Assembly (NCBI GenBank): GCA_005805505.1
Contig: SYMJ01000077.1
Span: 1 to 32,581 of the forward strand
DNA from: Verrucomicrobiales bacterium
GTDB lineage: Bacteria > Verrucomicrobiota > Verrucomicrobiia > Limisphaerales > UBA9464
Length of the DNA: 32,581 bases
Reading direction: 5' to 3'
Part shown: positions 6,630 through 30,600 of the stretch, one piece after another
Layout: each line of letters opens with the position of its first letter
Position numbering within the stretch: the first letter of the stretch is position 1
The notes under the pieces: generated by a model
Told to the model about the DNA's origin: nothing
Seen by the model: the letters and a program-made list of their open reading frames with translations, nothing else
The model's database searches: none
Translations under genes and position numbers: made by a program

Positions 6630-7185
6630 TATCGGCTACCTGTGATGTTCAGACACTACGGTTGGAAAGAAGGCGCATAAAGTCAATTCGGGGATGATGG
6701 TAAATGCGAGCGATTTGCAAAACAGCTGGGGCTCCGCGGTATCAGGCCTCCGCTCGCTGAGTAGGCTACGCGGTATCAGGCCTCCGCGCGCTGAGTAGGC
6801 TCTGAGGAGGAGGAGCTTTCGCGCTTTGCGCTAGGGGTGTGAGTGTTCGCCTCCAAGGCTCGCTCTGGCCGACACCGCTCCGCTACGGTTTTGGTGGGCT
6901 CCGCGGTGTCAGGCCTCCGCTCGCTGAGTAGGCTCTGGGAAGGATTAGCTTTCGCGCTGTGCGCGAGAGGGTTGGGGTGTTCGCCTCCAAGGCTCGCTCT
7001 GGCCTGACACCGCTCCGCTGGGTCGCTTTAGAGCCTGTCCCTTATGCGGCCCTTTCCCACTTGAGGTGAGGGGTGGATGCGGTGGGAATGACCTCCGAGG
7101 TAGGGACCGATCTCCGAGCGGTCCGTCCCTGCTTCGGGCTGTCCCTGCGTGGGGCTGTATACGGGGCTGGTCAAAGGGAGAGGCG
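6630..7185. other. Non-coding region between divergent permease and sulfatase genes
   Basis: This 556-base stretch separates two divergent genes and must hold both promoters. On the minus strand, TTGACT occurs about 50 bases before the permease start as a possible -35 element, but I cannot see a convincing -10 at the right spacing. The centre (6729-7020) holds tandem palindromic repeats. The right part contains a second, unrelated palindrome: GGACCG at 7104-7109 pairs with CGGTCC at 7119-7124 around a nine-base loop, and flanking AGGGA and TCCCT can extend it imperfectly. Open frames here are short, have odd composition and show no family resemblance, so I call no gene. Confidence 0.6.
6729..7020. 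repeat. Tandem copies of a palindromic intergenic repeat
   Basis: There are two nearly full copies of about 125 bases (about 6767-6895 and 6896-7020), preceded by a left-half copy (6729-6766). Each unit begins with CGCGGTRTCAGGCCTCCG, continues CGCTGAGTAGGCTCTG, then AGCTTTCGCGCT, then TTCGCCTCCAAGGCTCGCTC, and ends GACACCGCTCCGCT. In the right-hand copy the ends form a perfect 13-base inverted repeat: GCGGTGTCAGGCC at 6903-6915 and GGCCTGACACCGC at 7001-7013. Diverged relatives with the same order of blocks lie in other gaps of this window, most clearly at 30472-30600. It contains no coding sequence. It behaves like a REP or MITE-type element, but I do not recognise it as a named family. Confidence 0.85.
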
Positions 7186-19774: not shown

Positions 19775-19937
19775 AATAGAGTAACAGGTTCAAAGTTGGG
19801 CCACTGCGCGCGAGGGGAGGGTCTGTTCGCCTTCAATGCTTGCTCCGGCTCGGTCCCGCTGCCGCCGGGTGGCTTTGGGGACTGGCATGCAATAGAGTGA
19901 CAGGTTCACAGTTAGATAAAGTGACAGGTTCAAAGTT
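19775..19937. repeat. Three short direct repeats in the gap before the plus-strand cupin gene
   Basis: The sequence AATAGAGTRACAGGTTCAMAGTT occurs at 19775-19797 and 19891-19913, and its core GTGACAGGTTCAAAGTT again at 19921-19937. The first two copies flank a right-half copy of the dispersed palindromic repeat. The whole gap 19705-20040 (336 bases) has no gene apart from the mini-ORF ATG at 19709. It holds the promoters for the minus-strand prepilin gene and the plus-strand cupin gene, but I cannot place them. GGTTCAAA resembles a tRNA T-loop, but no tRNA can be folded here. Confidence 0.75.
19798..19885. repeat. Right-half copy of the dispersed palindromic repeat
   Basis: The blocks GCGCGCGAGGGGAGGGT, then TTCGCCTTCAATGCTTGCTC, then CGGTCCCGCTGCCGC follow the same order as the right half of the copies at 6896-7020 and 30472-30600. 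The left half is missing. It lies between two copies of a 23-base direct repeat. Confidence 0.65.
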
Positions 19938-20483: not shown

Positions 20484-20570
20484 GGGGGGGGCTGGCCGGA
20501 TCTCCTTCCGCAAGAGCGTGGTTGTTCGCTCGTTACCAGCCTCAGCCCGGCCTGATCTTCGCTGTCGCCT
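20484..20570. repeat. Degenerate copy of the dispersed palindromic repeat
   Basis: A G run (20482-20491) leads into GGCCGGATCTCCTTCCGCAAGAGCG, followed by TTGTTCGCTCG and GCCCGGCCTGATCTTCGCTG. The block order and the G-run start match the copies at 25226 and 30472, but the end complementarity has decayed. It fills the 164-base gap between two convergent genes and may serve as a terminator. Confidence 0.5.
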
Positions 20571-25199: not shown

Positions 25200-25225
25200 G
25201 CTTCTACTGAACGAGGTCCGAGGAT

Positions 25226-25300
25226 CGGGGGGGCTTGCGGGATCTTCTTTCGCAAGAGCTGGGTCGATCGCTTGTCACCGACTTCTGCAGGGTTTGCTTT
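25226..25300. repeat. Left-half copy of the dispersed palindromic repeat
   Basis: GGGGGGGCTTGCGGGATCTT, then CTTTCGCAAGAGCT, then GGTCGATCGCTTGTCACC resemble the left part of the copy at 30472. CTTGCG (25234-25239) and CGCAAG (25252-25257) form a small hairpin. It lies directly after phoU, where a transcript end is expected. The remaining gap to purA (25200-25568, 369 bases) holds this element, about 130 bases with nothing recognisable, and the structured leader and terminator listed next. Confidence 0.5.
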
Positions 25301-25434
25301 TCGGTCGCGCGCGGGGTATCGCCGAAGAATTTACCCGGCAATTACTCCTCTCCCAACCGCAGCGTTCCTTCTGGGCTGGTTCTGGAGTCGGCTATCTGGG
25401 CGCGGTGGTCATTGCGGTGTCCAATGCCTTGGGT

Positions 25435-30471: not shown

Positions 30472-30600
30472 GGGGGCTCTGCGGGATCGATCCTGCGCTC
30501 GCAGGGAAGCTCGGGGGGAGGATCAGCCATTGCGCTGCGCGCAGGTTTTTTGTGGATCGCTTCCAATGCTCGCTCCGGCCCGATCCCGCTGCCGCTCGCT
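30472..30600. repeat. Full copy of the dispersed palindromic repeat
   Basis: It aligns block by block with 6896-7020: GGCTCTGCGG, CGCTCGCAGGGAAGCTC, GGAGGATCAGC, TTGCGCTGCGCGC, GATCGCTTCCAATGCTCGCTC, GGCC, CCGCT. The terminal inverted repeat here is GCGGGATCG (30481-30489) with CGATCCCGC (30581-30589). At 6903-7013 it is GCGGTGTC...GACACCGC. Both ends have changed together, which keeps the pairing. It occupies most of the 235-base gap between pyrB and the ThuA gene. Confidence 0.85.

Follow-up and report, generated by a model that had tools for sequence, protein, structure and literature searches.

A dispersed intergenic palindrome with a covarying outer stem, linked to a motif that precedes a putative Y1/HUH transposase gene in a genus of Verrucomicrobiota

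The window, meaning the whole 32,581-nucleotide stretch of DNA analysed here, is contig C35 of a draft genome of 3.62 Mb that comprises 247 contigs and is 79.6% complete. Its gaps contain a dispersed repeat of about 119 bp (119 model positions), here named R1. Three full copies, a partial copy and a 38-bp piece are recognized in the window by nhmmer and a covariance model, and one of the full copies occupies a gap with an OTCase-like gene on one side and a ThuA-like gene on the other. The modelled strand of R1 is the minus strand of the window. The individual features are listed below.

6730..6767, plus strand: 38-bp 5' piece of R1, reaching into the following copy (nhmmer, model positions 1-38)
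6764..6881, plus orientation, modelled fold on the minus strand: complete R1 copy whose outer stem has decayed (104.8 bits, minus strand)
6897..7016, plus orientation, modelled fold on the minus strand: full R1 copy (123.1 bits, minus strand)
6903..6915, plus strand: outer-stem arm GCGGTGTCAGGCC of the 6897-7016 copy (sequence; modelled pairs)
7001..7013, plus strand: outer-stem arm GGCCTGACACCGC of the 6897-7016 copy (sequence; modelled pairs)
19802..19862, plus strand: partial R1, 3' half (nhmmer, model positions 59-120)
30475..30592, plus strand: full R1 copy in the gap between the OTCase-like and ThuA-like genes, named from Pfam (113.4 bits, minus strand)
30481..30489, plus strand: outer-stem arm GCGGGATCG of the 30475-30592 copy (sequence)
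30581..30589, plus strand: outer-stem arm CGATCCCGC of the 30475-30592 copy (sequence)

Along the modelled strand, the outer stem of R1 comprises 13 pairs and is succeeded by a small internal loop, GCGAGC opposite GCGAGC, an inner stem, and a central hairpin (CGCGC-loop-GCGCG) with GAAAG after it. In 35 of 52 copies both arms carry GCGAGC, a tandem GA arrangement, and the inner stem occurs in the variants GGAAGC/GCTTCC and GGAACG/CGTTCC. The partial copy scores weakly with the full covariance model (21.9 bits at 19789-19862). It is flanked by a 22-bp direct repeat similar to ATAGAGTRACAGGTTCAMAGTT, found at 19776-19797, 19892-19913 and 19916-19937. R1 copies are either single or arranged in head-to-tail arrays, with linkers that mostly measure about 14-33 bp. 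When the next copy lies no more than 60 bp away, 19 of 21 copies terminate in CGCTCCGC. A 3' end special to the last copy of an array was considered and dropped on recount, as last copies carry CGCTCCGC in 5 of 11 cases, CGCTGCYGC in 3 and other ends in 3. Among single copies, 13 of 25 have the CGCTGCYGC end. Short repeats of the GAGCCTGTCCC / GGGACAGGCTC type recur by R1 clusters in their 3' flanks, for example at 7030-7045 of the window and on contigs C86 and C59.

R1 is dispersed, intergenic and nearly restricted to one genus, part of a lake-dwelling group of Verrucomicrobia. The first-pass annotation had named a lack of further copies as evidence against such a family; instead, two window copies used as BLAST queries give 61 matches each in their own genome (E ≤ 0.01), and a covariance model built on an alignment (A1) of 52 copies detects 75 copies there (E ≤ 0.001). 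The true number is probably above 75 because contigs terminate inside copies, those ending within R1 being C69, C98, C148, C205, C237 and C240. R1 arrays may explain why several draft contigs break off there. The claim that the repeat never lies inside a gene is borne out by 63 of 64 R1 copies, which show no overlap of 30 bp or more with a predicted ORF. Genes were called with a codon-usage caller made here and trained on Pfam-supported window genes. Both neighbors were called for 20 of the 35 R1 clusters, with 11 in divergent, 7 in co-directional and 2 in convergent gaps; the co-directional clusters are divided 3 and 4 by orientation. The preponderance of divergent gaps is purely descriptive, being set against no gap-type baseline.

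Within the genus, R1 is found in 13 of 19 genomes including the present one, that is, in 12 of the 18 others, with 4 to at least 93 copies each; the high counts are lower bounds, as at most 93 candidates were scored per genome. One R1 copy was detected in one of five genomes from other genera of the same family (G022, from a sister genus), and R1 was found in 0 of 15 genomes from other families of the same order. A wider draw from the same order, with stricter filters and 12 candidates scored per genome, contains R1 in 9 of 293 genomes, all nine of which were known already. A 23-base core pattern of R1 occurs in 55 stretches from nine assemblies of the genome_contigs collection, where records of the present genome are possibly absent. 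These assemblies are titled Verrucomicrobia, Verrucomicrobiota, Verrucomicrobiales or Akkermansia MAGs, some bearing the name of Lac Pavin or of a pond, and the Akkermansia labels look wrong. The lone R1 of G022 (L081, 1501-1620) lies directly behind a gene end, and the last codons of this gene resemble those before C143:1385-1500 of the present genome. An old shared insertion, transfer and mis-binning fit this copy equally well.

The outer stem of R1 co-varies, and the support is collective rather than pair by pair. The first-pass annotation had pointed to ends that differ between copies and still match, and both of its examples, GCGGTGTCAGGCC/GGCCTGACACCGC and GCGGGATCG/CGATCCCGC, are present and pair correctly. 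Compared with dinucleotide shuffles, end complementarity is exceptional in the copies at 6897-7015 (0/2000) and 30475-30592 (12/2000) but not in the copy at 6764-6881 (186/2000). In the 52 rows of A1, 13 of 29 pairs have changed on both sides, as against 6.7 by column shuffling (0/500). These changes concentrate in the outer stem (8/13 pairs), and the central hairpin is nearly invariant. A larger alignment (A3) of 146 R1 copies from the present and related genomes was thinned at 97% to give a 137-row tree, along which columns were simulated; the copies were aligned to the covariance model, so this alignment is biased towards the model structure. Canonical pairing in the outer stem is 0.938 compared with 0.782 (sd 0.041) in this phylogeny-keeping null and is reached in 0 of 400 simulations. 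On single branches, 25 double Watson-Crick changes are inferred for the outer stem, a count that has no null comparison. The middle stem is weaker, with its canonical pairing reached by 18 of 400 simulations and its number of pair types by 0 of 400. The statistically supported covarying pairs that the first-pass annotation had proposed to count come to 0 of 6708 at E < 0.05 in an R-scape-like test of all pairs that was coded for this analysis. Its top pair lies outside the structure (E = 0.050), and E is 0.30 for the highest-ranking pair within the structure. As regards the suggested selection for a folded nucleic acid, compensatory change is supported when taken collectively, though by no single pair in this test.

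The G-T excess and the folding energy of R1 conflict as to which strand folds. Single steps from Watson-Crick pairs in the outer stem, read on the modelled strand, lead to G-T in 45 cases and to A-C in 18, and at 90% non-redundancy the cells number 45 versus 14; the excess is partly compositional, as the null cells stand at 146:99. Folding energy is lower on the plus strand in 44 of 47 copies. We lean towards the minus strand. Single-copy folding energy is significant for the 6897 copy (z -2.6 to -4.7) and weak for the 30475 copy (z -0.9 to -1.9).

The transposase search of the present genome covered the Y1_Tnp (PF01797) family and returned 12 matches, 11 of them above the cut-off. The proposed search for a RAYT/Y1 gene with linked copies was productive, as the Y1_Tnp gene on contig C196 has R1 about 100 bp upstream. 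This gene encodes 311 aa from its likely start with one HxH motif (HFH), and it scores 43.5 bits against PF01797 (cut-off 23) and 47 bits against NCBIfam REP_Tyr_transpos, which is under the cut-off of 80. Judged from its sequence, it qualifies as a putative RAYT-like Y1/HUH transposase. In the genus, 15 of 19 genomes contain homologues with E ≤ 1e-10. Full-length homologues of at least 55% identity are found in 11 of the 13 genomes with R1 (all but G015 and G009) and in one of the six without it. The exceptions include G015, with 27 R1 copies and no transposase match, and G003, with a 55% homologue and no R1. This co-occurrence across genomes is confounded by common descent. In G014, G010 and G007 there are 14 to 20 transposase matches each, many of them fragmentary or with stop codons, and G007 is without R1.

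R1 was found at 6 of 30 transposase loci searched. It lies upstream of all six orthologues of at least 90% identity, the present one included, and is cut to 59 bp in L105; at three orthologues of 73-80% identity, it is absent within the 1.5 kb examined. The flanks of the R1-transposase loci align across genomes, except upstream in L107. R1 beside the transposase in six genomes was rejected as independent evidence because the flanks are orthologous, and R1 at these loci is therefore one inherited event.

A 48-bp motif, named M (GGGGTCGGTCCCACCTATTTACAC-AAAAGGGG), was recognized in the flanks of the transposase locus. The linkage of M to R1 is one-oriented and often of fixed spacing, and M stands directly before the putative Y1/HUH transposase gene. 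In all nine orthologues (L100-L108), M lies 28-35 bp upstream of this gene in the same orientation; the near copy is partial in seven of the nine, where E ranges from 4e-8 to 3e-3. At L109 and L110, which carry 61% homologues, an inverted partial M is also present downstream, at 32-36 bp, and this is a terminal-inverted-repeat layout. No inverted M was found downstream at the nine orthologues L100-L108 or at R1. The present genome has 26 M sites with up to three mismatches and 0 sites for the reversed pattern. R1 is within 300 bp of 14 of these sites, in the same orientation at all 14, and at 12 of the 14 the closest R1 lies 3' of M; the remaining 12 of the 26 sites are without R1. M and R1 are separated by exactly 32 bp at five sites and by 75-76 bp at three. 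In the relatives, 48 of 49 M sites are within 150 bp of R1, all in the same orientation; this count covers 85 partly overlapping loci (432 kb) that were picked for R1, so it shows the placement of M around R1 and not the frequency of M alone. Of the 98 R1 clusters in the relatives, 32 have M directly 5', 66 do not, and M is located 3' in five.

The arms of R1 were also considered as diverged M cores, an idea that was rejected since their similarity is matched by 428 of 500 shuffles. End recognition by a transposase acting in trans, as first suggested, gains from the strong linkage of a RAYT-like gene and M to R1, but the inverted ends of R1 are unlike M. The part recognized by the transposase is more likely M beside R1 than these inverted ends.

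Two loci have M-spacer-R1-M in some genomes and M alone in others. Contig C34 of the present genome (L201) carries a lone M, whereas its counterpart on a contig of a Lac Pavin MAG (L217; flanks 97-98% identical) carries M-spacer-R1-M, in which the two M copies start 258 bp from each other and share an identical stretch of 42 bases. At the transposase locus, L106-L108 have M-gene and L100-L105 have M-R1-M-gene. A unit consisting of M, spacer and R1 appears to have been added at a pre-existing M at both loci, and M-R1-M could also be obtained by homologous recombination at M. In the L217/L201 pair, 42 bp of M are duplicated rather than the short target-site duplication of a MITE, and the unit varies in its right-hand boundary. 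At the OTCase/ThuA site, one, two or three full R1 copies are present depending on the species, and G009 retains a 5' remnant only. In L251, from a MAG, there are two full R1 copies and a 44-bp piece, and in L226 the piece alone; M was found in neither locus, and arrays therefore also change locally without M. At a sulfatase site, R1 is present in G018 and not in G002, with a junction too messy to place.

ERIC is a MITE-like intergenic repeat, a non-coding imperfect palindrome, and enterobacterial repeats of 103-168 bp are known. By description, repeats of this type resemble R1 in size, intergenic location, imperfect palindrome and lack of coding capacity; for R1, however, a target-site duplication is not established and M is on one side. 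REP/BIME sequences with their TnpA_REP resemble R1 as arrayed palindromes tied to a single-strand Y1 enzyme, but REPs are described as 20-40 bp long with a GTAG (or CGTC) tag (PMC2817692, PMC8266576), whereas R1 spans 119 model positions and has no constant tag (GTAG in 6 and CGTC in 4 of 47 copies, terminal 20 nt). REPINs are closer, being dispersed extragenic hairpins of about 100 bp with compensatory changes, tandem arrays that include the flanks, and clusters adjoining a RAYT gene (PMC3116915). R1 has the hairpin and the compensatory changes, and it lies upstream of 6 of 9 orthologues of the candidate cognate RAYT gene, albeit through one inherited event. According to the same source, REPINs have invariant ends, two of 16 bp, around a middle that varies; in R1 it is the ends that vary and the middle that is conserved, and the linked end motif lies outside the hairpin. 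R1 works like a REPIN or MITE, yet it has neither the size and tag of a REP nor the conserved ends of a REPIN proper.

M and its gene resemble the TIRtrons, elements of transposases with non-REP terminal repeats (TIRYTs), some of which share GGGGWSAS (PMC3733652). The similarities are a Y1/HUH transposase with a GGGG-type terminal-repeat motif at a short constant distance, and a terminal repeat that is also dispersed in the genome and sometimes grouped. The GGGGTCGG of M is one letter off GGGGWSAS, and M variants with GGGGTCAG occur in L135 and L111. TIRtrons have inverted flanking repeats, whereas M is on both sides in L109 and L110 and upstream only in L100-L108; among the features given in the available part of that source (PMC3733652), there is no palindrome of 119 bp that follows the terminal repeat. 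Our literature search found no paper naming R1.

We consider, with slightly better than even confidence, that R1 is a non-coding, non-autonomous, REPIN/MITE-like mobile palindrome, carried in a unit whose left end is the terminal repeat of the transposase and which is mobilized in trans and amplified in tandem. We infer the involvement of the enzyme, a single-stranded intermediate and the role of R1. The Y1 transposase would act in trans on single-stranded DNA, and M would be both the unit's left end and a favored place to land. The hairpin of R1 would be retained for its fold, forming the opposite end or offering a shape that is read instead of a sequence, so that a change in one arm would need a matching change in the other. 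Copies would then amplify locally in tandem through recombination or slippage, often with loss of M. A narrower version, which we rate as rather unlikely, is a composite single-strand unit with a sequence-defined end, M, and a shape-read palindrome, R1, that drifts with compensation; such a unit would home to existing copies of the transposase's own terminal repeat and would in this way also have landed upstream of the transposase gene.

It is unlikely, although the search covered the Y1_Tnp family only, that a different transposase moves R1, with M merely a favored target or shared neighbor and M-R1-M arising through recombination. The lack of a 5' M at 66 of 98 clusters, arms of R1 that are unlike M, and the presence of R1 in G015 without a match to this Y1 enzyme would suit such an origin, but M in the same orientation on both sides of R1 at two loci and an M-R1 spacing that recurs at unrelated sites speak against it. 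A structured RNA, either a small RNA or a cis-acting element whose stems are maintained by transcript-level selection, appears quite unlikely. It would account for the compensatory changes, for GCGAGC opposite GCGAGC in 35 of 52 copies, and for the preponderance of G-T over A-C on one strand (45 versus 18 steps), which a folded RNA predicts. However, folding is more favorable on the plus strand in 44 of 47 copies, the co-directional gaps hold three clusters in one orientation and four in the other and so show no preference, divergent gaps account for 11 of 20 clusters, the number of R1 copies at one site differs among species, and a transposase end motif is linked to R1. Rfam 15 likewise gave no match, neither in the window at gathering scores nor at E ≤ 1 in 6650-7100. 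For integron attC sites and hammerhead-type ribozymes, also considered as identities of R1, this Rfam comparison was the test. Most improbable in our view is a matching of the arms by copying errors, through hairpin template switching (quasi-palindrome correction) or exchange between arms, and not by selection. R1 is near-palindromic, its arrays recombine often, and matched double changes would then be expected without function. Such errors do not predict the one-strand G-T excess (45:18), even if the null already gives 146:99 from composition, and changes are matched in the inner stem too (GGAAGC/GGAACG) despite the internal loops that interrupt it.

How RAYT-type transposases move REP-like sequences is an unsettled question. 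Genomes of this genus contain up to dozens of R1 copies each, and the genus further provides an orthologous transposase linked to R1, M sites both filled and empty, and ends that vary and yet pair. This system could test whether such an enzyme reads an end by its shape and targets its own terminal repeat.

Of the five gaps in which the first-pass annotation had placed one family, those at 6729-7020, 19798-19885 and 30472-30600 contain R1, but those at 20484-20570 and 25226-25300 belong to a different pair of repeats. As candidate members of R1, the latter two were rejected by shuffle tests. The numbers of shuffles as good, for 20484-20570 and 25226-25300 respectively, are 47 and 870 of 1000 against 6897-7015, 214 and 48 against 30475-30592, and 833 and 678 against 19798-19885. 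When 25218-25305 was used as a query against the present genome (E ≤ 0.01), it matched only itself. The two sequences match each other better than any of 1000 shuffles, with 44 of 53 positions identical over the aligned stretch.
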